Origin: a virus
Length of the DNA stretch: 24,491 nucleotides
Strand: one strand, 5' to 3'
Virus record (IMG/VR): IMGVR_UViG_3300035188_000482
Location: 1 to 24,491 of that record
Part shown: piece after piece, positions 1-23,506 of the stretch
Layout: each line of letters starts with the position of its first letter
Position numbering within the stretch: position 1 is the first letter of the stretch
Notes under the pieces: generated by a model
What the model saw: only the letters and a program-made list of their open reading frames with translations
The model's database searches: none
Told to the model about the DNA's origin: nothing
Translations under genes and position numbers: made by a program

Positions 1-100
1 CATTGGTAGCCATGGTGAACGCTGTGATGGGAAGGTCTACCGGAGACCAGTCAGCGTTGACTCCGAGCTTACCTATGTCTCTCACAGGAACTATAGTCAT
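1..100 (-). CDS. Tail/structural protein, N-terminal fragment (cut by window edge)
   Basis: Thirty-three codons are visible before the window ends, starting MTIVPVRDIGKLGVNADWSP and continuing VDLPITAFTMATN. An ATG at 98-100 on the minus strand is preceded by AAGGAG with eight bases of spacing, so the start is clear. The pattern of a short conserved head, then DLP and a hydrophobic/aromatic stretch ending in TN, resembles the N-terminus of structural proteins found after tail-collar genes in T7-like phages. That family call is inference from a short stretch. It follows the collar gene on the same strand with a 12-nt gap, so both should share a late transcript. Confidence 0.5.
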   Translation of the reverse strand, partial: MTIVPVRDIGKLGVNADWSPVDLPITAFTMATN

Positions 101-112
101 GCATATAGCTCC

Positions 113-865
113 TTATGTTTTCATAATATAGGCAAGAGCGTAGTAGGGTGGGACTGTAGGAACAACAGAACTCGCAGCCGTATTGTTGTGGATGTGGGAC
201 TGAGAGCCGCCAACAGAACTATTGGCCACAGTAATACCAGTCACCCTGTTGTTGATGGTGATACCTGTGGTGTTATTGCCCGTCACAGTGTTGGTCTTAC
301 CAGACTCCATGCTGACGAACACAGTGCCATTGGCGAAGGTTCCCGTCTGGGACCTGTCGTAGCTGTGAGTATGCCCAGGGTCATTGATGGTGTGGTTATG
401 CCCTGGGTCAGTCACAGTCGCTGTGTGACTGTGGGCAGGAATCTGGGCTTCTGTAAGCGTCACCGCCTGGTTGGTCAGGGTGATGGTCGGAGTATTGCTT
501 GCAGCCCCACCAGTGTTACCCACAGGATACGTCGTGCCTGCACAGACCACAAAACGGTTCTGTAGGTCAGGTGTCGTTATGTTACCTGTGCCATCACTAC
601 GGGCCACAGTCTGGCCATTACACAACACCCAGCCACTTGGGAGGCTATTGGTGGCCCCGGACCACAACAGGATGGCTCCAGTGGGTATGAGGGACCCATT
701 AAGCTGAGTGTGGGTTGAGGTTACCTGACCACTGATGTTCGGGAAGGTGGACTTAAGGACAGACTTGAGTAACCGGATGTGGTCATCAGCCTGACCTACA
801 GGGTCACTACCAGGTGGATTAGAGGTGTTCAGGTCGCTAATAAATGCTGCGGATTCAATGGCCAA
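113..865 (-). CDS. Tail fibre protein with phage tail-collar domain
   Basis: A 250-residue structural protein, probably part of the receptor-binding tail apparatus. Residues about 58-115 carry the tail-collar signature: IPTGAILLWSG, then PSGWVLCNGQT, then TPDLQNRFVVCAG and GNTGG. A His- and Gly-rich middle follows (AHSHTATVTDPGHNHTI, DPGHTHSY, SHIHNN), then the typical ending VPPYYALAYIMKT. The start is TTG at 863-865 on the minus strand, with AGGAG about nine bases upstream; no ATG fits better. If the genome is circular this is the first gene of the late operon, because everything upstream on this strand is the divergent control region. Confidence 0.88.
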   Translation of the reverse strand: MAIESAAFISDLNTSNPPGSDPVGQADDHIRLLKSVLKSTFPNISGQVTSTHTQLNGSLIPTGAILLWSGATNSLPSGWVLCNGQTVARSDGTGNITTPDLQNRFVVCAGTTYPVGNTGGAASNTPTITLTNQAVTLTEAQIPAHSHTATVTDPGHNHTINDPGHTHSYDRSQTGTFANGTVFVSMESGKTNTVTGNNTTGITINNRVTGITVANSSVGGSQSHIHNNTAASSVVPTVPPYYALAYIMKT

Positions 866-1052: not shown

Positions 1053-1271
1053 TATGGGAAGTCGTAATCATAATACGAAGGTTATCTTGTGGGCTTATAT
1101 CTGGTCAGGAATGGTCGCTGCGCTCTCATTCCAGGCTATGGTCTTCTCAGAGTTACTCAGAGTTACCTGTGGGTCAGGATTGGTGGCTATGGTGGTCTCG
1201 GCGTATCTTGACGCCTGCCTTGGGCTCCTGTGGGCCTCGGAGTTGAACTACGCATTTGCGCGCTGTTTCTT

Positions 1272-1293
1272 CAATAGCAGGCCCTCGTTCACT
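1272..1293 (-). promoter_or_regulatory. 22-bp repeat, copy 1; candidate phage RNA polymerase promoter facing the late genes
   Basis: Read on the minus strand this 22-mer begins AGTGAACGAG and ends CCTGCTATTG. It is identical, in inverted orientation, to 6133-6154 just before the RNA polymerase gene; flanking bases differ at both ends. Its length and its end (GCTATTG, compare ACTATAG at the T7 start site) suit a single-subunit RNA polymerase promoter. It points toward the tail-collar gene about 400 nt downstream. The promoter role is inference. Confidence 0.4.
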
Positions 1294-1580
1294 AAAGTGC
1301 TGATAAGTGATTGTTTTTGTGTTGCTTCAGCGTAACTACGCAGTTTCTCAAATTTACACAGGTTTGCGCCCGGATTCTGGTTCCATAAGAGGCCAAAAGT
1401 TGCTTGGGATGAACAACAACGCCGAGGCTTTACCGGGATTTTTGAAAGGCCTTTTGAGATGATTTCAGAGGGGGACAGAGCCGGGAGGGACCCTAAGCCG
1501 CTTGATGCAGCCCGATGTAACGCAAGTCCCTGCAAGTCCCTGTAGCTGATAGCGTAACCTATTGATAACTCTAGCCTGTG

Positions 1581-1597
1581 GCGGACAGATAGTCCGC
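1581..1597. promoter_or_regulatory. Inverted repeat, possible operator
   Basis: GCGGAC-AGATA-GTCCGC is a perfect 6-bp inverted repeat with a 5-nt spacer and no T-run after it, so it looks more like a dimeric regulator site than a terminator. It lies between the 22-bp repeat and the early promoter. Confidence 0.35.
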
Positions 1598-1630
1598 TAT
1601 GTGTAAACAGCAAATGTAGTTGCATGAATT

Positions 1631-1673
1631 GACATTTGGACATTGTGTTTCCGACATTTGCCAGCGACATTTG
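1631..1673 (+). repeat. GACATT(T)G cluster, four copies
   Basis: GACATTTG, GACATTGT, GACATTTG and GACATTTG begin at 1631, 1639, 1653 and 1666, all on the plus strand, with spacings of 8, 14 and 13 nt. The first is part of TTGACA at 1629-1634. Such a cluster in a divergent control region suggests a protein-binding array (repressor or origin-type iterons). Confidence 0.4.
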
Positions 1674-1803
1674 GGCTATGGGTTGCCATAGTCAATAGGC
1701 TACTATTTGTAGTGGGTCTAACTTTTTTATCTACTAGGTCTAGAAATTATTGATTTGTATAGGTTTTCCGAAATGTGAAAAGACATTCGACACAAGAAAC
1801 CTA

Positions 1804-1832
1804 TTGACAGACTATAGCCACAAAGCTACAGT
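1804..1832 (+). promoter_or_regulatory. Candidate host sigma-70-type early promoter
   Basis: TTGACA at 1804-1809, 17-nt spacer, TACAGT at 1827-1832. The expected start near 1839 is just upstream of the first early small gene. A CTATAGCCA motif lies inside the spacer. The -35 is perfect and the -10 matches four of six positions. Confidence 0.5.
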
Positions 1833-1870
1833 AGACCATCGGCAACACAATGCAACCCAGAGCAAACATC

Positions 1871-1975
1871 ATGCAACACATCGCCCCCATAGTTTACCCT
1901 GTGCTACACATTGCAGGCATTGTGTCCTGTGGGTTAGCCCTCGGTTACAGCACCCTTGCGTTCTTTCTCGGCTAA
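1871..1975 (+). CDS. Small single-pass membrane peptide (34 residues)
   Basis: The peptide begins MQHIAPIVYPVLHIAGIVSC and continues GLALGYSTLAFFLG; nearly all of it is one hydrophobic helix. The context CAGAGCAAACATC before ATG mirrors CGGAGCAAACACC before the next gene, which supports this start; an in-frame ATG at 1850 is an alternative (41 residues). It is first after the candidate early promoter and lies 43 nt before the 2019 gene. I recognise no family. Tiny membrane peptides in phage early regions often act on the host envelope or on superinfection, but nothing here shows that. Confidence 0.45.
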   Translation: MQHIAPIVYPVLHIAGIVSCGLALGYSTLAFFLG

Positions 1976-1976
1976 T

Positions 1977-1994
1977 CTATAGCCACTTGACAAC
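1977..1994 (+). repeat. Leader repeat CTATAGCCACTTGACAAC, copy 1
   Basis: A perfect 18-bp direct repeat with 2503-2520. Each copy lies 24-25 nt before the ATG of an early gene, just upstream of its ribosome-binding site. Shorter forms of the CTATAGCCA core occur at 1812, 3221, 3290 and 4793. Confidence 0.6.
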
Positions 1995-2018
1995 TCTTAG
2001 CAACTCGGAGCAAACACC

Positions 2019-2480
2019 ATGACAACATGTCCTGAACTCAAAGAAACCGGACGCCTCGCTTATGCTTCCATCTCAGAGATGGTTGCAGCGCTCAATTGCG
2101 ACTATGACAGACTCGAAGAATTGAAAGATGTGGAAGAATTAACTGAATCTGAATCAGAAGAATTGATCGACTTGGAAAAGGATGCGGGCGAGTGCGCCGA
2201 CCGTGAGGAAGCCGAGCAACGCATTCAGGAAGATGCGCTATCGGTGGAAGTCAGAAGCGGATGGGCTTCTGTGGGCGATGACCTCACAGCCGAAGAGTTT
2301 TGCATCCTTATAACCACTGGTGGTCCCGCCGTGCGTATACGTGGCGAGCTTGATGAAAACTGTGAGCCCCGCCGTGCTTGGCTTGAAGTTCAGAATTGGG
2401 GGACACCGTGGACACAATACTTCGGAGCAGAGCAAGCGGTGCTTCTGGATTATGCGCGCTGTTTCTACTTTGGCGCATAG
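2019..2480 (+). CDS. Conserved acidic hypothetical protein of mobile elements
   Basis: 153 residues. Residues about 20-75 are a very acidic, probably coiled segment (RLEELKDVEELTESESEEL). The second half, from LSVEVRSGWASVG through EFCILITTGGPAVRIRGELD to WLEVQNWGTPWTQYF, matches a pattern I associate with hypothetical proteins on proteobacterial plasmids and phages. No enzymatic motif is visible. The start ATG has CGGAG eight bases upstream. It shares its leader repeat with the next gene, so the two are probably expressed together early. High acidity would fit a DNA-mimic or antirestriction role, but that is speculation. Confidence 0.7.
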   Translation: MTTCPELKETGRLAYASISEMVAALNCDYDRLEELKDVEELTESESEELIDLEKDAGECADREEAEQRIQEDALSVEVRSGWASVGDDLTAEEFCILITTGGPAVRIRGELDENCEPRRAWLEVQNWGTPWTQYFGAEQAVLLDYARCFYFGA

Positions 2481-2502
2481 TTCCAAGTTTTACACGTCCC
2501 AA

Positions 2503-2520
2503 CTATAGCCACTTGACAAC
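2503..2520 (+). repeat. Leader repeat CTATAGCCACTTGACAAC, copy 2
   Basis: Identical to 1977-1994 over 18 bases. The following bases also align loosely (both run on to a GGAG ribosome-binding site and then ATG), so the two leaders look duplicated. A degenerate relative (CATAGTCACTTGG) lies before the 8673 gene. Confidence 0.6.
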
Positions 2521-2545
2521 CTACAGTTAACAAGGAGTAACCACG

Positions 2546-3019
2546 ATGCAACCCTTCAAACACCTTAAACGCTGGCAAATGCCCGATAGCTACTTCGGCC
2601 CAGAGTGGCCTGAGTATTACGTTTTCTTAGGTCAGAATCGGGACAGCGACAGTCTGACCCGCAGTAACTTCGAGTGCGCCCTAACCGCTATCGGTGGTGA
2701 GAGTGAGACTGTCGAGATTGTCCGAGAGCGACACTGGGCGGTGGGTTGGGTTGAGTGGATAGCCATCCACGAGAGCGACACTGCGGCTCTAGCGAAAGCC
2801 GATGCAATTCTAGACAAGCTCGAAGATTATCCGGTTGTAAATGAGGACCACTGGTCCAACCTCGAATACGAGGAAGCGTGCGAGTATTGGAAACGCATGA
2901 GCGTTCGTGAACGTGCGGAATACTGCAAACGTGCGGATATCTCAATCTTTGCCGCTCGCCGTGATTATCTACCCGATGACCCTTGTGGTTATCTTTTCGA
3001 GTCACTCACTGCGGCTTAA
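2546..3019 (+). CDS. Conserved hypothetical protein
   Basis: 157 residues, acidic, with many Trp and Tyr residues. ATG is preceded by AAGGAG with nine bases of spacing. Recognisable stretches are GPEWPEYYVFLGQNRDSD, RHWAVGWVEWIAI and the C-terminal RRDYLPDDPCGYLFESL. I recall this pattern from hypothetical proteins of plasmids and phages of proteobacteria, not from any characterised protein. It follows the 2019 gene with a 65-nt gap that holds the duplicated leader. No membrane segment, signal peptide or catalytic motif is apparent. Confidence 0.7.
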   Translation: MQPFKHLKRWQMPDSYFGPEWPEYYVFLGQNRDSDSLTRSNFECALTAIGGESETVEIVRERHWAVGWVEWIAIHESDTAALAKADAILDKLEDYPVVNEDHWSNLEYEEACEYWKRMSVRERAEYCKRADISIFAARRDYLPDDPCGYLFESLTAA

Positions 3020-3033
3020 GGAAACAACATTCT

Positions 3034-3174
3034 ATGACCTATCAAACACAAGCTTCAAAACCTTCGCACCTGGTATTCTATTCACTACTCGACGCCATGG
3101 CCTTTTTGTTGTGTGTCGCCAGCGGCGCTTGCGTGTTGGGTTACCTGATGTCGAGTTATATCTTCGGTTCCTGA
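3034..3174 (+). CDS. Small membrane protein (46 residues)
   Basis: A short polar head (MTYQTQASKPSH) is followed by one long hydrophobic helix (LVFYSLLDAMAFLLCVASGA, then CVLGYLMSSYIFGS). AAGGAAA lies about eight to ten bases before ATG, and the gene starts 14 nt after the previous stop. A longer in-frame version from 2983 would overlap the previous gene and is less likely. The single helix with small residues in the middle could oligomerise in the inner membrane. No family recognised. Confidence 0.5.
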   Translation: MTYQTQASKPSHLVFYSLLDAMAFLLCVASGACVLGYLMSSYIFGS

Positions 3175-3243
3175 CAGATACCCCCTAGAACGCCCAGAAA
3201 TCGCCTCTGGTGCGCCTGGACTATAACCAATAGGCTACCCTAC

Positions 3244-3309
3244 ATGAAAACCCTTAAACTCACCCAGAGCCACTACAGGCACGCCTGGAGTATAGCCCCA
3301 TGTCTATGA
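3244..3309 (+). CDS. Possible 21-residue leader peptide
   Basis: ATG at 3244 opens MKTLKLTQSHYRHAWSIAPC and one more Leu, then stops with TGA overlapping the ATG at 3306 inside the next gene's start region (ATGA overlap). The ribosome-binding site is weak. It could couple translation to the 3300/3306 gene, or be chance. The same stretch contains the imperfect repeat GCGCCTGGACTATAACC / CACGCCTGGAGTATAGCC (3212-3228 and 3280-3297). Confidence 0.2.
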   Translation: MKTLKLTQSHYRHAWSIAPCL

Positions 3310-3551
3310 CAGCATCTGAGGTCTACAGCCTGATCGGCCATAAGACCCACAATGAGCTTTGCGACCTGTGTCGAAGGCTAAACACCAAACCATGGCTGAA
3401 CTCGCGCGAACAACGCGACCAGCTACAGGCCGCCCAATGGGCTTTGGCTAACCGCTACGCCTACTCGCGCGAATGCAAGTGGCGTCGAGACTTCCCCACG
3501 ACGACCAGAAACCTTTGGACAGCCGATCAACTTCGGGAGTTCGCACGATGA
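3300..3551 (+). CDS. Hypothetical small basic protein
   Basis: 83 residues, rich in Arg, Trp and Gln (REQRDQLQAAQWALANRYAY, then SRECKWRRDF). Basic charge and predicted helices suggest nucleic-acid or protein binding, but no known fold is evident. TGGAG lies nine bases before ATG 3300; ATG 3306 is an alternative start overlapping the leader peptide stop. Its TGA overlaps the next ATG (ATGA), so the two genes are translationally coupled. It contains two CTCGCGCG octamers (3401, 3464), both read as Ser-Arg. Confidence 0.55.
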   Translation: MSMTASEVYSLIGHKTHNELCDLCRRLNTKPWLNSREQRDQLQAAQWALANRYAYSRECKWRRDFPTTTRNLWTADQLREFAR

Positions 3552-3784
3552 CCGACACAACTTACACCGTCGCAAACTTTATGGTGACCCATCTCATAGC
3601 CCCTGCCCGCCTCGCGCGTTACATGGCGCTAAACGACCCCCAGGGATTGGACAGTGACGATAAGCTACTCGCTGACCGGCTCTTGGCCGAGTACGGTGAC
3701 GTTGTGTCCTACACCTCGCGCCCTCGCGCGACTCGAAGCGACCCCGCGATGGTTGAGTTCACCTTCCTGTCATCGGTCGCCTGA
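3548..3784 (+). CDS. Hypothetical protein (78 residues)
   Basis: ATG overlaps the stop of the previous gene (ATGA). The protein begins MTDTTYTVANFMVTHLIAPA, has a helical middle (RLARYMALNDPQGLDSDDKL) and ends EFTFLSSVA. No family recognised. It carries three CTCGCGC sites (3611, 3715, 3723), the densest part of that repeat cluster. A longer reading from 3473 would run deep into the previous gene and is not supported by a ribosome-binding site. Confidence 0.55.
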   Translation: MTDTTYTVANFMVTHLIAPARLARYMALNDPQGLDSDDKLLADRLLAEYGDVVSYTSRPRATRSDPAMVEFTFLSSVA

Positions 3785-4136
3785 GGTTATCCCCAGAACC
3801 CCCAGTATCCTCAGTTTCCCCATATTTAGTGGGTGCGAAAAATTGAAGCTGCTACCTCTTGCAAACCTCGCGTTAGTTGGGGCTAACTCAGATGGTCATG
3901 GCGCGGTACACCCCGAGGGAAGCTCTCGGCGTGCCTTCCGCACCAGCAAGGAGGATAGTCAAGTGACACAGGAGCATCACCGCACGGCATGGCCTAGCCG
4001 GACTCGGCTTTGTCAACAAACTATGACAATAACGACCTCTTGTTCGCGTTGTGTTCTCGCGTTACGTTGGTCGTTTCCAACCTCGACATGGTGTTGAGGA
4101 ACGAAAAGATCGGTCTTATTTACCGGCGGAGATAAC
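3785..4136 (+). other. Gap with possible decayed or very small ORFs
   Basis: A near-ideal ribosome-binding site (AAGGAGG at 3949-3955) lies eight bases before GTG 3963. That reading gives only 44 residues of odd composition, ending at 4097. In another frame, TTG 4010 to TAA 4135 reads more naturally, ending VVSNLDMVLRNEKIGLIYRR plus Arg, but has no ribosome-binding site. A good initiation signal in one frame and protein-like sequence in another suggests a small gene broken by a frameshift. I call neither ORF. Confidence 0.3.
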
Positions 4137-4391
4137 ATGCCTAGTTTTCGTAATATCAAGGCCTTGGACATAAGTAAAGGGGAGCTTCTCTCCTTTGATT
4201 GGACAATCAACGGCACGGGTGGGCGCTTGGTCTTAGCAACAAGCCCTCGCGCGGCTGATTATATAAGCAGAAACACCGATGGCGCACAGCCAGAAACTGT
4301 AGTCTTTGGGGTAGCCTTTGCCACTGAGGGTGACTATCATGCTCTCTGTGTGGGCAGTGATGCCGAGGGCATCCCCAGAGACGATGAGTAG
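4137..4391 (+). CDS. Hypothetical protein (84 residues)
   Basis: ATG follows CGGCGGAGATAAC, giving a GGAG ribosome-binding site at about six to seven bases. The protein begins MPSFRNIKALDISKGELLSF, looks mainly beta-strand, and ends acidic (DAEGIPRDDE). No family recognised. It lies 13 nt upstream of the winged-helix regulator with its own ribosome-binding site, so the pair is probably co-transcribed and ends at the terminator at 4764. One CTCGCGCG site (4246) falls inside. Confidence 0.55.
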   Translation: MPSFRNIKALDISKGELLSFDWTINGTGGRLVLATSPRAADYISRNTDGAQPETVVFGVAFATEGDYHALCVGSDAEGIPRDDE

Positions 4392-4404
4392 AACGGAGAT
4401 AATC

Positions 4405-4773
4405 ATGGAAAAGCGTCGGCCAGGATCAGAGTATAACGACGCGGAACTGCTCGCCCTCACTCGCGCGTCTTACATCATCCGTGAGTTGAGAGAGACCAGT
4501 CAAACTATAACGACACCGATGCTCGATCTTTTCTTCACCGTAGCCCTGAATCCGGGCTATGGACCGAACGAATACTCGCGTCGCATCGGGACACTCGCGC
4601 CAAGCATAAGCAATCAGTTTGCAAAGCTTGGTGGTGAGAAGGACAGCAGGGGCAAACCAATGGATCTGCTGAAAGAAGGGCCGCCTTTGGGTGACCCTCG
4701 CGCGAAAGGTTACTACTTGTCCGAGAACGGCAAGAAGTTAATTCGCCGGATACTCAAGGCACAGGGAGTCTAG
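4405..4773 (+). CDS. Winged-helix (MarR-like) putative regulator
   Basis: 122 residues; ATG 4405 has CGGAG seven to eight bases upstream. Residues about 35-75 (TPMLDLFFTVALNPGYGPNE, then YSRRIGTLAPSISNQFAKLG) read as a first helix followed by a helix-turn-helix of winged-helix type. A wing-like turn and closing helix follow (LLKEGPPLGDPRAKGYYLSE, then NGKKLIRRIL), as in MarR-type proteins. It is the last early gene before the integrase and is followed immediately by a terminator. That position suits a lysogeny or early regulator, but its target is unknown; candidates are the repeats at 1581-1673 or the CTCGCGCG octamer. Confidence 0.65.
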   Translation: MEKRRPGSEYNDAELLALTRASYIIRELRETSQTITTPMLDLFFTVALNPGYGPNEYSRRIGTLAPSISNQFAKLGGEKDSRGKPMDLLKEGPPLGDPRAKGYYLSENGKKLIRRILKAQGV

Positions 4774-4785
4774 GACTCTCTTTTT
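4764..4785 (+). terminator. Rho-independent terminator between regulator and integrase
   Basis: GGGAGTC (4764-4770) pairs with GACTCTC (4774-4780) across a TAG loop, one pair being G-T, followed by TTTTT. The loop TAG is the stop codon of the winged-helix gene, so ribosomes reaching the stop would cover the hairpin. It should separate early transcription from the integrase. Confidence 0.75.
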
Positions 4786-4829
4786 GTCTTGTTTATAGCC
4801 AGAGACCTAACTTAGCCAAGGAGATGGTT

Positions 4830-5906
4830 ATGTCTATCTACCCTGAAAAGAGGAACAAGAAGCCAACGGGAAGGTGGATCGTAGACGTTGTGATGAACTA
4901 CAAGCGACACACTGCTCGCGTTAAATCCTTTGAAGAAGCAAGGAAAACTGAAGCGGCTATTCGTGGGTTTGATTTACCGCCGGAGGAAGTGAAGGACCCA
5001 GATGAAGGTAAGCCCTACACGCTAGGTAGGCTCCAAAGGGAGGTTGCCCCAACTTTGTATCGTGGAAACTCCGACGAGGAGTATGACCTCGCGCGTCTTG
5101 CAACTTGTGTTGAGATTATCGGACCAAAGACACCGTTGACCGAAGTCCGGTATGCAGCCTTGGAAAACCTAGTAGAAGTCTTGCGTAACAAGAAGACGTT
5201 CTACGGCAAGCACTACACCAACAAGACGATCAATCGGTATCTCTCGTGTATGTCAAAAGCCCTTCGATGGGCGCACAAGCGTGACCTTATCCTTGGGATG
5301 CCTGCGATTCCTCGCCAGAAAGAACAAGAGGGTCGCATAGCCTACCTACGCGACTACGAGATACCGAAGTTCGTTGAGTGGATCAGGGACAACGAGCGCG
5401 AGACCACAGCCCTGTGTCTTGAGACGCTCATGGTCACGGGTATGCGCGTTGGTGAACTGTTGTCATTAGACCCGGATCAGGTCGAACAGGACGCTGACGG
5501 CAACTATTTCGTCATACTTGAGCCTGAGTTTACAAAGACCCGCAGGAGTCGAACCATACCCATCCCCCAGGACCTCGGTGACCGACTCATAGCCATGCTC
5601 CACGAGAAGTTGCCGAACTACGAGCTACTCAGGCAGGCGTGTCTCAGGGCAAGCATCAAGCTAAAGCTGAAGGACACCATAACACCTCACATCCTGAGGC
5701 ATACGTGCGCCACCATCCTGACTGCTCAGGGCGTCCCATCGTTGGTTGTGGCTGATCTTTTGGGCCACTCAAATCTGGCGACGACCCGACGCTATGCCCA
5801 CCCGACACGAGCGTCTCTGATAGGCGCGATGGAGGTCATAAGCGCCAAAAGAACTACAGGGACTCTACAGGGGATTGGCGAAAAAACGATCTGTAAACAA
5901 AAGTAG
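4830..5906 (+). CDS. int: Tyrosine recombinase (phage integrase)
   Basis: 358 residues. It catalyses site-specific recombination between attP and attB through a 3'-phosphotyrosine intermediate. All catalytic residues are visible: Arg206 in TGMRVGELLSLD, a Lys in the beta-hairpin TKTRRSRTIPIP, His287 and Arg290 in HILRHTCA, His313 in LGHSNLATTRRYAHP, and the nucleophile Tyr322. Residues about 60-150 form the SAM-like core-binding domain and the N-terminus a short arm-binding region. ATG 4830 is chosen because AAGGAG ends six bases before it; the in-frame ATG 4824 directly abuts the AAGGAG. A TATAGCC motif (4793) after the terminator may be its own promoter region. The tRNA-Tyr-like attP candidate lies 30 nt downstream. 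Confidence 0.95.
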   Translation: MSIYPEKRNKKPTGRWIVDVVMNYKRHTARVKSFEEARKTEAAIRGFDLPPEEVKDPDEGKPYTLGRLQREVAPTLYRGNSDEEYDLARLATCVEIIGPKTPLTEVRYAALENLVEVLRNKKTFYGKHYTNKTINRYLSCMSKALRWAHKRDLILGMPAIPRQKEQEGRIAYLRDYEIPKFVEWIRDNERETTALCLETLMVTGMRVGELLSLDPDQVEQDADGNYFVILEPEFTKTRRSRTIPIPQDLGDRLIAMLHEKLPNYELLRQACLRASIKLKLKDTITPHILRHTCATILTAQGVPSLVVADLLGHSNLATTRRYAHPTRASLIGAMEVISAKRTTGTLQGIGEKTICKQK

Positions 5907-5935
5907 AAACAGTATTAAAAACAATGGGTTGCCAG

Positions 5936-5974
5936 TTTACAGTCCGCCCCCTTTGCCGCTCGGGACATTCCCCC
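5936..5974 (-). other. Candidate attP core: 5' half of a tRNA-Tyr(GTA) gene
   Basis: On the minus strand the sequence runs GGGGGAATGTCCCGAGCGGC, then AAAGGGGGCGG, then ACTGTAAA. This is the acceptor strand, D-arm, and anticodon stem and loop (anticodon GTA at 5940-5938) of a tRNA-Tyr. The match ends at the anticodon loop: the next bases, CTGGCAACCC, cannot complete the anticodon stem, so this is not a working tRNA. Tyrosine integrases often cross over in anticodon loops, and the fragment lies beside int. An inverted repeat CTGTAAAC (5891-5898) / GTTTACAG (5935-5942) overlaps it. On the same strand TTGACA (6013-6008) lies about 35 nt upstream of the tRNA 5' end. Confidence 0.65.
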
Positions 5975-6081
5975 AACGGGAGACCCTTTCGTCAATTCAA
6001 GGGCTTCTGTCAACCCCAGTTCAGCGTGTTTACATTGTCATAGCCCAATGGCTCCGAAGTGCGTGGGAATTTTGGAGCCTC

Positions 6082-6109
6082 TTGACTAGTGTAGGCTTTT
6101 GGCTATGTT
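6082..6109 (+). promoter_or_regulatory. Candidate sigma-70-type promoter for RNA polymerase
   Basis: TTGACT (6082-6087), 16-nt spacer, TATGTT (6104-6109). Transcription would start near 6116, about 70 nt before the ATG at 6188. It lies downstream of the attP candidate, so it would stay attached to the RNA polymerase gene after integration. Confidence 0.5.
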
Positions 6110-6132
6110 TATCAAAGGCTTGGAATCAAAAG

Positions 6133-6154
6133 AGTGAACGAGGGCCTGCTATTG
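6133..6154 (+). promoter_or_regulatory. 22-bp repeat, copy 2; candidate phage promoter before RNA polymerase
   Basis: Identical to 1272-1293 on the opposite strand (begins AGTGAACGAG, ends CCTGCTATTG). It lies between the host-type promoter and the ribosome-binding site of the RNA polymerase. If its last G is +1, the leader to ATG 6188 is about 34 nt and contains GGAG at 6178-6181. An alternative GTG start at 6134 would place the repeat inside the coding region. Confidence 0.4.
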
Positions 6155-6187: not shown

Positions 6188-8638
6188 ATGGACGCTTATG
6201 CCTACACAGCCGCCAAGCTTAACCACAAGGATGAGAAAATCATCCGCAGGATGGGCCTTGGAGACACAGAGCAGGCTCAGGCTCTGACTTCGGATTACGT
6301 GGATGTCTACAGTCACCTGTTCGAGGTTTGGAAAGAAAAAGTCCGATCAGACAGAAACTTTCGTGGAGTGATAAGAGACCTACAGTCACTCGAAACTGAG
6401 ACTTTGGCTGTCCTGAGCATAAATGCGGCTATTTCTTCCCTTGGTGTGGACAACGCAACACTGACCACAACCCTCAGGTATATTGGTCAGGCTGCCTATT
6501 TTGAGTGTTACGGGAAGGCCCTGAGCCTGTTTGACGCAGAGCAGTCTGAGAAGCTTGTGTCATCCACAAAGCGGTCCAACAGCAGCTTAAAGCATCGTAG
6601 GCGAGGTATTCGTGGGCTGGCCAAGCACATCGGCTTTAAGTTTGAGGAGTGGTCGGATCAGGACAAACTGACGGCTGGCCGAAGGCTGCTTGAGGTTCTG
6701 CTTGAGGGTCCACTCTTCGCCTTAGCCTTCATGGACTACCAACCTTACCTTGTGTTGACAGACGAGGCTAACGAGCAGCTTCGAGAGATTATTGACTCCA
6801 TAACCGTCAAGCGACTGAGAGGCGTCCCTCAGGTCGGGGATGTTGTGTTTTGGGAGTCATCCACCCTGCACATTGACAACATGCCCTACCCCCTAATCAG
6901 GAGCTATCAGAAACCCGTCAGGAACCACGTAGACCGGGCAATTAAAGCCGGTCGTATGGGCCAACCTCTGGCTGCCCTGAACCACATTCAGTCAGTCAAA
7001 TGGAAGATCAACGAGGAAGTCCTTCGGGTTGTGGAAAGAGCCTATGCGGACGGTGTCTGTGTAGCCGGGATGCCATCCAAAGTTGACATTGAGCTTCCGG
7101 CTATCAGCAAACCTTGGGAAGCAATGAGCGACCAGGAGAAGTATGCGTGGCGAAGGAAGGCCAAGAGAGTAAAGCTCGCCAACATCTCACTTGAGGGTGA
7201 GCGCATCGTCTTCGAGAGCGATATGTCAACAGCAAGGCGGCTTATCGGCCAGGAGTTCTGGCTGATGTCCAACTGGGACTATCGAGGACGTGTTTACCAA
7301 ATCCCCCACTTCAACTTTCAGCGCCAGGACCATATCCGAGCGTTGTTTCAGTTTGCCGAAGGTCAACAGGTCAACCAAAGCGGTCTTTATTGGCTGAAGG
7401 TTCACCTCGCCAACTGTGGTGACTTCGGAAAGGTCTCAAAGAAAACCTTTGATGACCGTGTGTGGTGGGTAGACGACAACCTTGAGCGCATTCTTTCGCT
7501 CACACTATCGCCATTTGACTACCTATGGTGGACAGAGGCCGACAAGCCGTTCTTGTTCCTCGCTGCATGTTTCGCTTTGAGGGACGCTCTGGATGGCAAG
7601 CCGGTCCACATCCCCTGCTCCCACGATGGATCATGCAGTGGACTTCAGCACCTTGCCGCAAGTAGCCGCTGCGAGAACACCGGACGGCTTGTGAACCTTG
7701 TGTTCAACAAGAGTGGTCCTATGGACATTTATCAAACCATCGCTGACCGGGTTAAGCATAAAGCAGAGGAGGACCTGACTTCAACAGAATCACTCACGTT
7801 CAAAAACGAGAAGACGGGTGTTGAACGTAAGGTGGCCGTCGCTGAACTTGCACGCCTTCTGTTGGACAACGGGATTACAAGGAAGTTGTGTAAACGAAAC
7901 ACAATGACGTTCTCCTATAGCTCCAAGCGTAGCGGGATGCAGGATCAGATACTCGAAGACACCATGCGGCCACTCTCGTTGCAACTGTTATCTGGTGAAA
8001 TCGAACAGCATCCATATGGCGAGGATGGTGGATATGCAGCAGCACGTTATCTGTCTGGGCTGACATACTCAGCTATCGTTGAAACTGTCGATAAACCCGC
8101 AGAAGTAATGCGCTTCCTGCAATCGATAGCACGTGTCATGTCCCATGAGGGAAAACCTGTAACATGGACAACACCGATTGGTTTTCCTGTGATGCTACGT
8201 GTTCCGAATATGAAGCCCTCACAAGTCAAGCTCTTTCTACATGATAGAGGGGTTCGAACAATCTACAAACCCGTGTCACTAAACGAGAACACGGGAATAA
8301 ACAAAGCTAGGGCTTCCTCCTCGATTGCGCCGTCTGTCGTTCACTCATGGGATGCAGCGCATTTGATGATGGTTGTTCTTGCGGCCAAACAGGAGCGCAT
8401 CAACAGCATTGCTCTCGTTCACGATAGCTTTGGGTGTCTTCCGAATGAAGTTGACCGCTTCAGGAAGATAATCAGGGAAACTTTCGTCGAGCTTTATGAC
8501 AAGCATGATGTCCTTCAAGATATCTGGCAGGAAAACAACAGCAATCTTGAAACACATGCTTACAAAATGCCGACCATACCTAAGAAGGGGAAGCTCGATA
8601 TCACAGAAGTGTTGGCAGCGGAGTATTCGTTTGCCTAA
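6188..8638 (+). CDS. Single-subunit DNA-directed RNA polymerase (T7 gp1-like)
   Basis: 816 residues (T7: 883). It transcribes phage middle and late genes from phage-specific promoters. Visible elements are DYRGRVYQIPHFNFQ (equivalent of T7 DWRGRVY), motif A SHDGSCSGLQHLAASSR with metal-binding Asp480, motif B RKLCKRNTMTFSYSSKRSG with Lys569 and Tyr577 (the T7 Lys631/Tyr639 spacing of eight is kept), and motif C ALVHDSFGCLP with Asp746. The C-terminus is AAEYSFA, resembling the T7 FAFA foot. ATG 6188 is chosen because GGAG lies six bases upstream; GTG 6134 would add 18 residues and has a weaker signal. It is the first gene after int and the attP candidate. Confidence 0.96.
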   Translation: MDAYAYTAAKLNHKDEKIIRRMGLGDTEQAQALTSDYVDVYSHLFEVWKEKVRSDRNFRGVIRDLQSLETETLAVLSINAAISSLGVDNATLTTTLRYIGQAAYFECYGKALSLFDAEQSEKLVSSTKRSNSSLKHRRRGIRGLAKHIGFKFEEWSDQDKLTAGRRLLEVLLEGPLFALAFMDYQPYLVLTDEANEQLREIIDSITVKRLRGVPQVGDVVFWESSTLHIDNMPYPLIRSYQKPVRNHVDRAIKAGRMGQPLAALNHIQSVKWKINEEVLRVVERAYADGVCVAGMPSKVDIELPAISKPWEAMSDQEKYAWRRKAKRVKLANISLEGERIVFESDMSTARRLIGQEFWLMSNWDYRGRVYQIPHFNFQRQDHIRALFQFAEGQQVNQSGLYWLKVHLANCGDFGKVSKKTFDDRVWWVDDNLERILSLTLSPFDYLWWTEADKPFLFLAACFALRDALDGKPVHIPCSHDGSCSGLQHLAASSRCENTGRLVNLVFNKSGPMDIYQTIADRVKHKAEEDLTSTESLTFKNEKTGVERKVAVAELARLLLDNGITRKLCKRNTMTFSYSSKRSGMQDQILEDTMRPLSLQLLSGEIEQHPYGEDGGYAAARYLSGLTYSAIVETVDKPAEVMRFLQSIARVMSHEGKPVTWTTPIGFPVMLRVPNMKPSQVKLFLHDRGVRTIYKPVSLNENTGINKARASSSIAPSVVHSWDAAHLMMVVLAAKQERINSIALVHDSFGCLPNEVDRFRKIIRETFVELYDKHDVLQDIWQENNSNLETHAYKMPTIPKKGKLDITEVLAAEYSFA

Positions 8639-10753: not shown

Positions 10754-12331
10754 ATGGGAACCTTCGTAAGACATATCGCCTGCGAGAACTGTGGGTCATC
10801 CGATGGAAACTGCCTTTATGTTGATGGCACCACATTTTGTTTCGTGTGCCGGACTTACGGAGGTTCCTCTACTGAACATGGAGACAAAGTGAGCAATGGG
10901 AAACTACTGGAGCGAAATAGCCGATTACTACAAGGCTCTTACACCGACATTCCTAAAAGACGCCTACGAGAAGACACTTGCCGAAAGTTTGGCTATGCCA
11001 CAGGAACAGATTCAAATGGTCAACCCCTACACATTGCTAGTTATCGGGATGCTGGAGGGCGCGTTGTTGCTCAGAAAATTCGCAGACCCAACAAGCACTT
11101 CTCGTGGCTGGGAGAACGAAGCGAATGCCTTCCTCTCTACGGCCAGCATCTATGGTCCTCCGGTCGGTATGTCATCATTACAGAAGGCGAAATAGACTGT
11201 CTGTCGGTCGCACAGGCCTTCTCTCTGAAACACGCGGTAGTCTCCCTGCCCGATGGAGCCCAGAGCGCACCCAAGGCTATCAAACAGGCCTATGAGTGGC
11301 TCTGTGGCTTCGAGAAGATAGTCCTGTGTTTCGATCAGGATGAGGCGGGTCAGAAGGCTGTTCAACAGGTGGCAGAGATGCTGCCTGTTGGCAAAGTCTT
11401 AGTCATGCACCTAACCCGTAAGGACGCCAATGAAGTCCTTGTGAACGATGGTGCTGCTCCAATTACACAAGCCTTCTGGAACGCTACCGAGTGGCGACCT
11501 GATGGCATTGTAAGTGGGGAAGACCTTTGGCAAGAAATACTGAATTCCAAAGATGCTGAGTCAATCAGTTATCCTTGGCCTTGTTTAGATGTAAGGACCA
11601 AAGGTCTTCGCAAAGGGGAGCTTGTAACCATCACAGCAGGCTCTGGCATCGGTAAGTCATCCTTTGTCCGTGAAGTTGCCTACCATCTCATCAAACACGG
11701 TGAGACTGTGGGTATGCTTATGCTAGAAGAAAGCACAACGAAAACTGCTCTTGAGCTTATGGGCCTTGCGTTGGATGTATCACTACCTCAGAGAAAATCC
11801 GAGGTAACTGAAGAACAACTCAGAGCCGCCTTCAGTCAAACTGTGGGCTCTGGTCATCTATATCTCTATGACCACTTCGGTTCCACGGACGTAGACAATC
11901 TGCTGAACAAGATCCGCTACATGTCCAAGGCACTTGGTTGCTCGTGGATCATCCTTGACCACCTATCGATTGTCGTGAGTGGGCTCGACGGTAACGATGA
12001 GCGAAAACTCATCGACCGTGCGATGACCATGCTGCGAACTCTGGTACAGGAGACAGGCATTGGGTTGCTTGTGGTCTCCCATCTGCGACGACCGGATGGC
12101 AAGGGACACGAAGAGGGCGCACAGGTGTCTCTGAGTCAACTCCGAGGTTCTCATGCCATCGCACAGCTTTCCGACATGGTCATTGGTCTTGAGAGAAACC
12201 AACAAAGTGATGTGGAGGAGGACATGACGACTGTGCGTGTGTTGAAGAACAGGTCTTATGGAAAGTGTGGCAAAACAGGGGTTCTTCTTTACAGTGATGC
12301 CACAGGACGAATGACTGACGCTGGATTGTAG
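10754..12331 (+). CDS. Bifunctional DNA primase-helicase (T7 gp4-like)
   Basis: 525 residues (T7: 566). It synthesises RNA primers and unwinds DNA as a hexamer. The zinc-binding domain has Cys10, Cys13, Cys29 and Cys32. The TOPRIM domain shows ITEGEIDCLSVAQAF (about residues 136-150) and LCFDQDEAGQKA. The DnaB/RecA-type helicase domain has Walker A AGSGIGKSS with Lys301 and Walker B SWIILDHLS with Asp402, then RGSHAIAQLSDMVIGLERNQ and a C-terminal KNRSYGKCGKTG. The T7-like acidic C-terminal tail is short here (GRMTDAGL). ATG 10754 lacks a strong ribosome-binding site and sits five bases after the previous stop. Confidence 0.95.
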   Translation: MGTFVRHIACENCGSSDGNCLYVDGTTFCFVCRTYGGSSTEHGDKVSNGKLLERNSRLLQGSYTDIPKRRLREDTCRKFGYATGTDSNGQPLHIASYRDAGGRVVAQKIRRPNKHFSWLGERSECLPLYGQHLWSSGRYVIITEGEIDCLSVAQAFSLKHAVVSLPDGAQSAPKAIKQAYEWLCGFEKIVLCFDQDEAGQKAVQQVAEMLPVGKVLVMHLTRKDANEVLVNDGAAPITQAFWNATEWRPDGIVSGEDLWQEILNSKDAESISYPWPCLDVRTKGLRKGELVTITAGSGIGKSSFVREVAYHLIKHGETVGMLMLEESTTKTALELMGLALDVSLPQRKSEVTEEQLRAAFSQTVGSGHLYLYDHFGSTDVDNLLNKIRYMSKALGCSWIILDHLSIVVSGLDGNDERKLIDRAMTMLRTLVQETGIGLLVVSHLRRPDGKGHEEGAQVSLSQLRGSHAIAQLSDMVIGLERNQQSDVEEDMTTVRVLKNRSYGKCGKTGVLLYSDATGRMTDAGL

Positions 12332-16545: not shown

Positions 16546-17278
16546 TGGCGATGAGTTCGTTCATGTCTGCTCATCGGCTGTGGAATATGAGGCGAGGTGG
16601 GACGACCAGAACATCATCCTCGCCAGTAACGTAGAGGAGGCATGGGATGCCTTTCTGGGACGCCTTAAGACTGTTCACGATGCTATTGAGGGCGAAAAGG
16701 TCCTTCGGTTCGCTTTCACTGGATCAGAGAACTTCCGAAAGTCACTATATCCTGACTACAAAGCAAAGCGTAGTGGACGTAAGCCGCTATGTTTCTCAGA
16801 CCTCAAGGGGCGAGTACACGAGAACTTTGATTGTCACACGGAACCATCCCTAGAAGCCGATGACCTCCTTGGTATCTGGTCAACCGATGGCAACCACGAG
16901 AACCCTGTAGTCATCTCTCAGGACAAGGACATGCTCACCCTACCTACCACTATCTGGAGGGACGGTGGCCTCGTGGTCCTTGGTCAGGGTGACGCTGACT
17001 TCCACTGGCTGAAGCAGACACTGACCGGAGATACCTCGGATGGCTACCCAGGCTGTCCGGGGTTTGGTCCTGTGTCCGCTGAGAAGCTCCTGGATACCTT
17101 TGTAGCTCTGGATGGCTCATTCCTCGTTGATGAGGCGTGGAAGGCTATCGTTCAACACTACGAGAAGAAGGGGCTCTCAGCAGCCGATGCTCTCACACAG
17201 GCAAGACTTGCTCGGATACTCCGGGCAACTGATTGGGACGAAGAGAAACGAGAGGTGAAACTTTGGACACCAAACTAA
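16523..17278 (+). CDS. 5'-3' exonuclease (FEN/T7 gp6-like)
   Basis: 251 residues from GTG 16523, with GGAAAG upstream. It removes RNA primers and degrades DNA from 5' ends, feeding host nucleotides to phage synthesis. Metal-binding acidic sites are seen in LLIDGDEFVHV, EPSLEADDLLGIWSTD and VISQDKDML. The helix-three-turn-helix DNA-binding element is TGDTSDGYPGCPGFGPVSAE. It is shorter than T7 gp6. It overlaps the following TTG-started gene by 16 nt. Confidence 0.92.
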   Translation: MKRTLLIDGDEFVHVCSSAVEYEARWDDQNIILASNVEEAWDAFLGRLKTVHDAIEGEKVLRFAFTGSENFRKSLYPDYKAKRSGRKPLCFSDLKGRVHENFDCHTEPSLEADDLLGIWSTDGNHENPVVISQDKDMLTLPTTIWRDGGLVVLGQGDADFHWLKQTLTGDTSDGYPGCPGFGPVSAEKLLDTFVALDGSFLVDEAWKAIVQHYEKKGLSAADALTQARLARILRATDWDEEKREVKLWTPN

Positions 17279-21699: not shown

Positions 21700-21748
21700 A
21701 CCGATAGACAACCCTTGGGTATACCTTGGGCTGTCTATCGGTATTTTT
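21700..21748 (+). terminator. Strong hairpin terminator at the convergent junction
   Basis: ACCGATAGACA (21700-21710) and TGTCTATCGGT (21732-21742) form a perfect 11-bp stem. Three further C-G pairs (CCC/GGG) follow after one mismatch, and then ATTTTT. The T-run favours the plus strand, ending the PhoH transcript. On the minus strand the stem is followed by TTTAAA, so it may also slow late transcription, whose last gene stops at 21747. Confidence 0.85.
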
Positions 21749-21995
21749 AGCTTCTGTGGGCCGTCAGTTGGTGTATCCAGGCGACCAGTTGGTCCCAGTT
21801 CAGCCAACCTAAGACCGTGGTGGTCAGAGCCAACACAAGTTTCCCCATGTTGTAGGCCACCTTGGCTGTCAGGTCTATCTCCAGTTGCCTGTGGCCTATC
21901 CTGTCCAGCTTCTCGTCCATATCGACCAGAGTGACCTTAAGGCTATCCAGCTTCGTCTCAAGGATAGCTATTCGTTGCGAGTGGTCGTCTGTCAT
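21747..21995 (-). CDS. XhlA-like small membrane protein of the lysis cassette
   Basis: 82 residues. A coiled-coil head (RIAILETKLDSLKVTLVDMD, then EKLDRIGHRQLEIDLTAKVA) is followed by one transmembrane helix (MGKLVLALTTTVLGWLNW) and a short tail, the layout of XhlA-type haemolysin/holin-associated proteins. ATG at 21995 overlaps the Rz1 stop (ATGA); an upstream in-frame GTG at 22013 is less likely. It is the last gene of the late operon and probably assists membrane permeabilisation at lysis. Confidence 0.65.
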   Translation of the reverse strand: MTDDHSQRIAILETKLDSLKVTLVDMDEKLDRIGHRQLEIDLTAKVAYNMGKLVLALTTTVLGWLNWDQLVAWIHQLTAHRS

Positions 21996-22234
21996 TTCTT
22001 GAGCCACCCACACTTCAAAGCCAGACCAACCGCATTGTGTTCCCTGATCTGGGCAATGGTAGGTTTGGTGTCATGTCGGGAATAGTAGATGGCTCTGGCT
22101 GCCTTACAGAACTCAGGGCCACCCTCAGTCTCTAAGGAACGGGTCGTTGTCTGGCAGGCTGTCAGGGTCACGAGCAATGGCAGCACGAATAGCTTCACGG
22201 GCAGCCACTGCGATTTGAGCTTGAGTAACTTCAT
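21992..22234 (-). CDS. Rz1: Outer-membrane spanin lipoprotein (Rz1-like)
   Basis: 80 residues. The basic N-terminus and hydrophobic stretch (LFVLPLLVTLTAC) end in the lipobox LTAC, with Cys27 as the lipidation site. The mature part is EFCKAARAIYYSRHDTKPTI, then AQIREHNAVGLALKCGW, a pattern common in phage o-spanin-like proteins. The first 110 nt overlap the Rz-like gene in another frame, the classic nested Rz/Rz1 design. It would span the periplasm with the inner-membrane partner and fuse membranes at the end of lysis. The presence of spanins indicates a Gram-negative host. Confidence 0.8.
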   Translation of the reverse strand: MKLLKLKSQWLPVKLFVLPLLVTLTACQTTTRSLETEGGPEFCKAARAIYYSRHDTKPTIAQIREHNAVGLALKCGWLKK

Positions 22235-22361
22235 GTCTCAGGGCCTCTAGCTGCTGCTGTGTCCTACCGGCGTCTACAAGTCGGTTGACGTAGAGCCATT
22301 CGAATAGTTTACCGACAGCAGCAAAAGCCGCTGTCAGTAGACTCAGGAGAACACTTATCAC
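22125..22361 (-). CDS. Rz: Inner-membrane spanin (Rz-like)
   Basis: 78 residues from GTG at 22359-22361, which overlaps the holin-like stop (GTGA). It has an N-terminal transmembrane helix (MISVLLSLLTAAFAAVGKLF), then a long helix with coiled-coil character (RTQQQLEALRHEVTQAQIAV) and the ending DPDSLPDNDPFLRD, often seen in phage Rz proteins. It shares 110 nt with the Rz1-like gene. The two together form the spanin complex. Length is short compared with lambda Rz. Confidence 0.78.
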   Translation of the reverse strand: MISVLLSLLTAAFAAVGKLFEWLYVNRLVDAGRTQQQLEALRHEVTQAQIAVAAREAIRAAIARDPDSLPDNDPFLRD

Positions 22362-22540
22362 TGCTCTACGTTACCACCAGCAACATTGAGGTCCTTGGAT
22401 GCGATGAGACCAAAGGCCCCAAGCAACGCAAGGATATCATCAACACTGAAGGTCCCTTCGAAATACCACTTGGCTGCAATGGTGATGAGCATGGAGACAC
22501 CAGCAGCCGTGGTCTTCCAGTTCTTCCTAACGTAATCCAT
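22358..22540 (-). CDS. Holin-like small membrane protein
   Basis: 60 residues with two hydrophobic segments: NWKTTAAGVSMLITIAAKWY and DDILALLGAFGLIASKD, then VAGGNVEQ. The NWKTT...GLIASKDxNVAGG outline is common in small phage proteins next to endolysins that are annotated as holin or holin-like. It would form the inner-membrane lesion that releases the endolysin. It lies 30 nt after the endolysin stop and overlaps the Rz-like gene by four nt. The functional call is from context and topology. Confidence 0.6.
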   Translation of the reverse strand: MDYVRKNWKTTAAGVSMLITIAAKWYFEGTFSVDDILALLGAFGLIASKDLNVAGGNVEQ

Positions 22541-22559
22541 GGTTCTATGCTTTCTTTGA

Positions 22560-22580
22560 GGAGACGAAGTCTACGACCTC
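22560..22580. repeat. Hairpin repeat, copy C of three
   Basis: GGAGACGAAGTCTACGACCTC, matching copy A (958-978) at 19 of 21 bases. AGAC-GAA-GTCT forms a short stem. It overlaps the endolysin stop region and lies just before the holin-like gene on the late strand, so late mRNA would carry AGACTTCGTCT here. Confidence 0.6.
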
Positions 22581-22987
22581 TTGGGATATAGCTTTGCGGG
22601 CAGTTGGTAGTGAGGGCCATCCTTGAAGGACCGCCAGTCACCACCCCATTCAATAGGAACACCAACAGCCTTGGCGGCTTCCTTAACTATCTTCGAGAGC
22701 TTGGCGTATAGCGGCCAGTCCCACCTGATTTCACCACCATCAACCACACCATCACCGTCAGCATCCACCCACACAGCAAGATCAACTGCGTGTCCTGTGA
22801 TATGCCGGGAGTTCATGGTTCTGGAGGCTCCCGCCTTGACTAACTGTCGCTGACGGTCAACTGTGCGTAAACCCTCGGTCACGATGAACTTCATGTCCGA
22901 GAGTTCCGCAGCTTTGTTAATGACTTTCTGTAAATCAGGGTGAACTCCCGCCAACCTCTTCTTCGAGGCGTCGTTGAGTTTAATCAT
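22571..22987 (-). CDS. Endolysin, M15-family peptidase
   Basis: 138 residues. A zinc peptidase of the VanY/L-Ala-D-Glu type that cuts peptidoglycan cross-bridges. Zinc ligands appear in NSRHITGHAVDLAVW (His and Asp) and DGPHYQLPAKLY (His), with TEGLRTVDRQRQLVKAGASR as the upstream helix and loop typical of the family. No signal peptide is present, so export depends on the holin. ATG at 22987 overlaps the previous stop by eight nt; a TTG at 23002 is in frame. Single-domain and small, as in many podoviruses. Confidence 0.9.
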   Translation of the reverse strand: MIKLNDASKKRLAGVHPDLQKVINKAAELSDMKFIVTEGLRTVDRQRQLVKAGASRTMNSRHITGHAVDLAVWVDADGDGVVDGGEIRWDWPLYAKLSKIVKEAAKAVGVPIEWGGDWRSFKDGPHYQLPAKLYPKRS

Positions 22988-23165
22988 TTGATTCAGGTTC
23001 AACCTTTAGTTTTGCTTCAGCCTGCTCACGGATGCTTGAGATAACTTCAGTCACCTCAACATACGGACGGTTGCCCAGAGCATTCATAACGATGTTCCAG
23101 GCTGCTACGGGTAACTCTATGCTAATAACTTTCTGTTCCACGAATAGTCTTTCTACTGATTCCAA
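22980..23165 (-). CDS. Hypothetical small protein of the late operon
   Basis: 61 residues from TTG at 23163-23165, overlapping the upstream gene by 13 nt and the endolysin by eight. The sequence VISIELPVAAWNIVMNALGN, then RPYVEVTEVISSIREQAEAK, has one strand and two helices. Similar small proteins occur between fibre and lysis genes in phages. No function can be assigned. Confidence 0.6.
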   Translation of the reverse strand: MESVERLFVEQKVISIELPVAAWNIVMNALGNRPYVEVTEVISSIREQAEAKLKVEPESND

Positions 23166-23506
23166 GGCAAAGCCGGACGAACTACCGGCGGGTTGATCTG
23201 GTCTTCGATCTGTTTGTCCAAAGCAGCTTTCTGCGCTTCGAGTGTCTCAGGGCCGAAAGCATCTTCGAGCCACCCGATGACCTGTGCTTCCGTCAGGTCT
23301 TCATATGGCGTGAAGGGTGCTTCCGGGTCGAGGGTGACGGACTGTGAGCCGTATATGTCGGCTGTGTGTGCAGAAGCGCCAGCTTCGCTGCCTGTGCCGT
23401 CAGTCGCTACCCTTCGCCAATGGACGGTGAACACAACGTCCGTGTGGTCGTCCTGTTGTGGGTAGCAGTCAAGTTGGGAAATTACCCATGTGTATTGATT
23501 AGCCAT
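23153..23506 (-). CDS. Conserved phage protein of unknown function, tail-fibre neighbour
   Basis: 117 residues. The pattern ANQYTWVISQLDCYPQQDDH, then DVVFTVHWRR, then GSQSVTLDPEAPFTPYEDLT, then QVIGWLEDAFG and DKQIEDQINPPVVRPALPW is a strongly conserved family I recognise from many tailed phages, usually next to tail or lysis genes. It is probably a virion or assembly protein rich in beta-strands, but its role is unknown. ATG at 23506 overlaps the fibre stop by eight nt. Confidence 0.8.
   Translation of the reverse strand: MANQYTWVISQLDCYPQQDDHTDVVFTVHWRRVATDGTGSEAGASAHTADIYGSQSVTLDPEAPFTPYEDLTEAQVIGWLEDAFGPETLEAQKAALDKQIEDQINPPVVRPALPWNQ

Follow-up and report, generated by a model that had tools for sequence, protein, structure and literature searches.

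Putative promoters for a phage-encoded T7-type RNA polymerase head both arms of a divergent genome and vary in concert among its relatives

In T7 RNA polymerase (RNAP), a specificity loop formed by residues 739 to 770 reads promoter positions −12 to −8, of which −11, −10, and −12 separate T3 from T7 (PMC11617373). In phage LUZ100, a phage promoter, phi1, stands before the RNAP gene, a regulator gene and an integrase gene lie upstream, and positive feedback has been proposed (PMC10134795). Here, we analyzed IMG/VR virus record IMGVR_UViG_3300035188_000482 as a whole (24,491 bp, both ends of which cut the late arm; hereafter the window), which holds the 22-bp sequence AGTGAACGAGGGCCTGCTATTG in two exact copies, at 1272-1293 on the minus strand and at 6133-6154 on the plus strand. 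The two copies are, with high confidence from sequence comparison, predicted to be promoters for the phage's own T7-type RNAP.

The initial annotation had described a perfect 22-bp inverted repeat with differing flanks, and both of its coordinates proved exact: the adjoining base differs on either side, where the match stops, and the flanks of the copies are unrelated. The pair is the longest exact repeat of any orientation within the window, and the chance expectation for inverted exact 22-mers, from base composition, is ∼1.3e-5. There was no third copy in the window at up to three mismatches (shuffled sequences also gave 0), and an exact 22-mer scan found AGTGAACGAGGGCCTGCTATTG nowhere else in IMG/VR because relatives carry their own versions. 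The plus-strand copy ends 34 nucleotides (nt) before the ATG at 6188, a start (MDA...) used family-wide, of the gene for a T7-type single-subunit RNAP of 816 amino acids (6188-8638, plus strand; PF00940, 7.5e-84; phrog_414, 1.7e-178; profile match to T7 RNAP structures 1cez/1qln). As a putative autogenous promoter of this gene, it would span −21 to +1 with the +1 G at 6154. Its inverted counterpart, a putative late-arm promoter, would span the same positions with the +1 G at 1272 and reads toward the late genes. This division, one copy facing the late genes and the other the polymerase, had been described from the outset and was confirmed, the late block itself being visible in relatives.

RNAP searches of IMG/VR yielded relatives at 54 to 56% identity, and six relatives with RNAPs 48 to 56% identical share the layout, with an element ending in CTATAG (or a close variant) before a T7-type RNAP gene and an inverted copy heading the late operon. 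At the same two positions, L006 carries its own inverted pair TTCTATCTATTC(C/G)TATAG, L009/G007 carries TCATATCTCCTC(C/T)TATAG, and L010/G008 carries TTCTATCTATGC(C/A)TATAG. A scan for post-+1 sequences found the late element of L031, TTCTAACCCAGCCTATAG, which is the RNAP-leader element of L004 from a sister sample, and that of L032, which matches L005 from the same sample. Searching with the first late gene reached two more, G013, where CCCCCTAGCTGCGACACGCTATAGA forms a perfect inverted repeat of 25 bp, and G009, where the pair reads ATCAGACACACACTAT. Late-leader counterparts, each of its own sequence, are at hand for L006, L031, L032, G007, G008, G013, and G009; RNAP-leader counterparts lie 14 to 53 nt before the RNAP start. 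The search of genome and relatives for the 22-mer that had been proposed with the repeat thus returned the two window copies only and, in relatives, pairs of their own sequence. No pair was found in L019 to L021 (RNAP 40% identical), and the late half was looked for and not found for L046. Late-leader records L056, L058, L060, L063, and others had no detectable RNAP on the contig. We rejected L035, L041, L042, L052, and L053 as members because they were chance matches to short patterns.

Within each of seven phages, the element of the RNAP leader matches that of the late leader at every position from −17 to −6 (84/84 positions), versus a mean of 4.7 of 12 positions alike between different phages, and the true within-phage pairing is the single best of 5040 permutations. 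Just 3′ of +1, conservation follows the type of site (RNAP or late) and not the phage. Among closer phages, late sites keep the consensus GAAGAGAACACGCG, matched in the window by GAAGAAACAGCGCGC, and RNAP sites keep GCATATACGCCG, where the window has GCCTATACCGC; the window sequence 3′ of 6133-6154, CCTATACCGC, resembles the RNAP-leader consensus CATATACGCC. The late leaders of L031 and L036 are nearly identical except for the element (ACCCAGCC/TCTATTCG), as are the RNAP leaders of L004 and L010 except for ACCCAG/TCTATG. Site-specific leaders behind a shared, phage-specific element that runs up to +1 are what one would expect if a single polymerase, encoded by the phage, read both promoters, and they argue against a duplicated segment. 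A duplicated element in relatives had been named as what would overturn the promoter reading, and the relatives spoke in its favor: only 18 to 25 nt are common to the two sites in seven phages. At the level of sequence, these comparisons establish that the RNAP leader and the late leader carry, on opposite strands, one element at least 18 nt long. This element changes between phages, but always at both sites together, and ends at a T7-class melting and initiation core (TATA or TATT, then G); each arm of the divergent genome has a single copy.

T7-class promoters are elements of about 17 to 23 bp that close with a TATA-like core and a purine at +1 and recur 5′ of transcription units. The window element itself has these features, being a 22-mer with TATT followed by G whose copies stand only at the RNAP and late leaders. 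We paired bases −11 and −10 with the residue at T7 position 748, read from alignments anchored on both sides of the loop, in which K681 of the window RNAP (codon 8228-8230) aligns with T7 N748. Lysine goes with GG in the window and with GG or GA in K11; aspartate goes with CC in T3, gh-1, L003, and L004 and with CA in L007; and glutamate goes with AA in L046, so that an acidic residue always accompanies A or C at both positions. Asparagine goes with GA in T7 and G013 and with CT in L006, L009, and L010, and glutamine goes with CA in G009. The match between the lysine enzyme of the window and a K11-type AGGGC is a striking agreement; as evidence for the link to the polymerase, we take the overall pattern as supporting only. 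The fit of length, polarity, and 3′ end to a phage RNAP promoter, noted when the repeat was first annotated, is supported by the TATA/+1 core, the −21 to +1 length, and this agreement in loop residues.

Several observations weigh against promoters of this kind. The −1 base is T in the window and A, as in the TATAG of T7, in most relatives, TATTG being shared only by L046, and the RNAP-leader copy of G009 (CTATTAG) deviates at −1/+1. The L004/L031 pair comes from two contigs of sister samples and so may represent two strains, and no pair was found in G015 (RNAP 40% identical). The correlation at residue 748 (hypergeometric p 0.002) comes from 14 partly related sequences and a pattern spotted post hoc, and N748 pairs with CT as well as with GA.

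Among other explanations, the one that survives best, and is still very improbable, is that the element is an operator for the MarR-like repressor of the phage or for another DNA-binding regulator, which would repress both arms in the lysogen. A winged-helix regulator gene does lie nearby (4318-4773), a MarR-like protein is believed to repress the RNAP promoter of LUZ100 (PMC10134795), and two operator sites would also vary in concert. However, the element lacks dyad symmetry and is found in one polarity at either site; like T7-class promoters it ends at TATA/+1, the class-conserved leader begins right after +1, and the element tracks a loop residue of the RNAP rather than a dyad-binding protein. 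Fainter again is the prospect that the copies serve mainly as origins of replication, which the phage RNAP would fire, and only secondarily in transcription. RNAP promoters in T7-group phages also prime replication, and the T3 record puts the primary origin just after promoter phi1.05, yet this leaves unexplained why both copies sit exactly at the starts of gene arms with class-conserved leaders; moreover, the two roles are not exclusive, as origin use would still need promoter activity. Least probable of all is a recombination product (a duplicated fragment, an integrase arm site, or the end of an invertible segment), for although inverted repeats ∼4.9 kb apart flank the integrase gene and could be recombination sites, the little that the two sites have in common differs in sequence in every phage, the attachment core is elsewhere, and the pair has one orientation in 7/7 phages with no inverted state seen, so that the relatives largely refute it.

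Taking the copies as promoters for the phage RNAP, we infer from their position autogenous control and late activation. Host RNAP would first read the early arm and, from a sigma-70 promoter at 6082-6109, produce some phage RNAP. The phage enzyme would then initiate at two sites: at 6154, where it would boost its own synthesis and transcribe the replication arm, and at 1272 on the opposite strand, where it would turn on the late arm; K681 of its loop would read −11G/−10G, as in phage K11. The putative host promoter (6082-6109, plus strand; TTGACT-16-TATGTT) stands in tandem 5′ of the phage promoter and by itself is at chance level. A sigma-70-like site is present in four members (the window, L006, L009, and G013), its −10 box 27 to 31 nt upstream of the phage element, and such sites pooled over 8 leaders gave a shuffle p of 0.0002. 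It could start polymerase synthesis ahead of self-amplification.

Just 3′ of the late promoter, the predicted late-leader RNA (1200-1263, minus strand) holds three small hairpins (1250-1263, 1223-1236, and 1200-1215) on which alignment and single-sequence folds agree. The hairpins appear to be kept in the window, L031, L006, and L009, and by inspection the third shows two compensatory pair changes (GGCGU/ACGCC, GGGGU/ACCCC, and GAGGU/ACCUC). The fold, with a z of about −1.4, is weak alone, and the window had no Rfam match.

The first late-arm gene encodes a tail-collar/fiber protein (113-865, minus strand; PF07484, phrog_5795) 59 to 61% identical to the proteins encoded first in the late arms of G013 and G007. 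At the right end (21747-24488, minus strand) are tail-fiber, endolysin, and small lysis-type genes. Minus-strand late genes at both ends of the window (1-865 and 21747-24491) imply one late arm with a missing middle; the window is one circular-map genome whose capsid/terminase block is missing between the contig ends. On the plus strand, a small winged-helix transcription regulator (4318-4773; phrog_9665 transcriptional regulator, 8.1e-7), which has syntenic homologues in G007 and G013 and is called MarR-like from its position, where LUZ100 has a MarR-like gene, and by that analogy, is followed by a tyrosine integrase (4824-5906; PF00589, 6.1e-23; phrog_1, 5.4e-50). Genes for a primase-helicase, a DNA polymerase, a ThyX-type protein, ribonucleotide reductase (RNR), and PhoH lie 3′ of the RNAP gene, all on the plus strand. 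We rejected the view that the 500-amino-acid DNA polymerase open reading frame is truncated, as the frame is open and homologous from ∼12833 and only its start codon is at issue. Close to gene starts in the early region, the 18-bp sequence CTATAGCCACTTGACAAC is directly repeated at 1977-1994 and 2503-2520 (plus strand), and a sequence resembling it, CTATAGCCAC, overlaps with a TTGACA-17-TACAGT site (1804-1832); these sites are possibly early host promoters or operators.

The full plan is seen in G007, of 36.5 kb, and in G013, which at 42.6 kb is nearly complete judging by its content; in both, the two arms lie on opposite strands. One arm holds the regulator, integrase, RNAP, replication, and nucleotide metabolism genes, and the other holds collar, tail, ejection, terminase, portal, scaffold, and capsid genes. 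In each genome the promoter occurs exactly twice, once for either of the divergent arms, and in G007 all genes 3′ of the minus copy are late (collar, tail fiber, terminase, portal, scaffold, and capsid). The G007 portal (L026:6491-8530, minus strand) best matches phrog_1216, and instead of T7-like phages its 20 best cultured relatives, 27 to 29% identical, are mainly large podoviruses of Escherichia coli (SU7-like), Vibrio, and Aeromonas. This suggests a mosaic genome, with a replication arm of T7 type joined to a structural arm of foreign origin.

Between the integrase gene and the phage promoter lies a putative phage attachment (attP) core of 39 bp (5936-5974, minus strand), identical to nt 1 to 39 of alphaproteobacterial tRNA-Tyr (gta). 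It is unchanged in six members (the window, L046, L006, L009, L010, and L004), where it falls at the integrase 3′ end or just past it. The core is exact in at least 119 genome contigs, and ARAGORN placed the beginning of tRNA-Tyr at the match in 8/8 contigs tested. Its presence in many Methylobacterium, Bosea, Brevundimonas, and Caulobacter genomes indicates alphaproteobacterial hosts, host inference from tRNA-type att cores being an established yet coarse method (PMC3861242); a search of E. coli with the core gave nothing. G013 and G009 have, as read by eye, a tRNA-Cys-like 3′ half in its place. No prophage was found in a search of genome contigs with the RNAP alignment. The lineage is probably temperate. 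Integration at this core, which has the integrase (or its last codons) on one side and the phage promoter on the other, should part the polymerase gene from the early operon. We tentatively raise the broader possibility that in a temperate phage family the entire regulon of the phage RNAP depends on two promoters, a single one for each divergent arm, whose specificity changes in step with that of one polymerase loop, and that integration at a tRNA site, by cutting the RNAP off from the early operon, acts as a physical lysogeny switch on a self-amplifying RNAP.

The window, L046, L003, L004, L006/L010, L009, G013, and G009 form a natural series of about eight polymerase-promoter sets in which promoters and specificity loop changed and flanks stayed. 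Such a series suits study of how a polymerase and all its promoters switch jointly; as each genome has only two promoters, two coordinated changes are enough for a switch, and the evolutionary question becomes directly testable. It is also a source of candidate orthogonal RNAP-promoter pairs. The G013 element AGCTGCGACACGCTATAG (11533-11550, minus strand; 16828-16845, plus strand) is close to the T7 promoter (CGAC-C-CTATAG) despite a distantly related RNAP, making the two a candidate for cross-recognition. Self-amplifying phage RNAP control would extend to divergent podoviruses that are probably temperate, infect Alphaproteobacteria, and have no cultured representative among the collections searched.

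Compared with described systems, the RNAP is about 31% identical at best to that of any cultured phage. The elements share with the T7 and T3 promoters (TAATACGACTCACTATAG; AATTAACCCTCACTAAAG) their length, TATA core, +1 G, and specificity bases at −12 to −8, and relatives with D748 use CC as T3 does, just as G013 (N748) uses GA as T7 does; T7 and T3, however, have many copies on one strand, whereas here there is one per divergent arm. Klebsiella phage K11 likewise has K at T7 position 748 and AGG(G/A)C at −13 to −9 followed by CTAT, where the window has AGGGC at the same positions, but its RNAP is only about 29 to 30% identical, its promoters are many and on one strand, and −8 to −6 and −1 differ. 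Pseudomonas phage gh-1 also has an annotated phage promoter, phi1, directly 5′ of its RNAP gene, behind host promoters, although it is lytic and unidirectional, with 17 annotated promoters. LUZ100 resembles the window in having a regulator gene and a tyrosine integrase 5′ of the RNAP gene, a phage-specific promoter directly before it, and a replication module that includes genes for RNR and thymidylate synthase (PMC10134795); it differs in its eight phage promoters and T7-like unidirectional order, in place of two copies, one per arm, and a late block on the opposite strand. A cognate single-subunit RNAP coevolving with the element, one of the marks of the T7 class of promoters, is seen here in the PF00940/phrog_414 enzyme, the seven covarying pairs, and the agreement at residue 748. 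We class the locus as a T7-class promoter/RNAP system. The T7-like RNAP that is the hallmark of Autographiviridae/Autographivirales is present, but membership in Autographiviridae fails on single-strand gene order, as the late arm is opposite in the window, G007, G008, G013, and G009. Given the precedents of LUZ100 and gh-1, autogenous phage-RNAP control itself is not new; the novelty lies in a plan with two promoters on divergent arms, in the lineage, and in a natural series of pairs that switched together.

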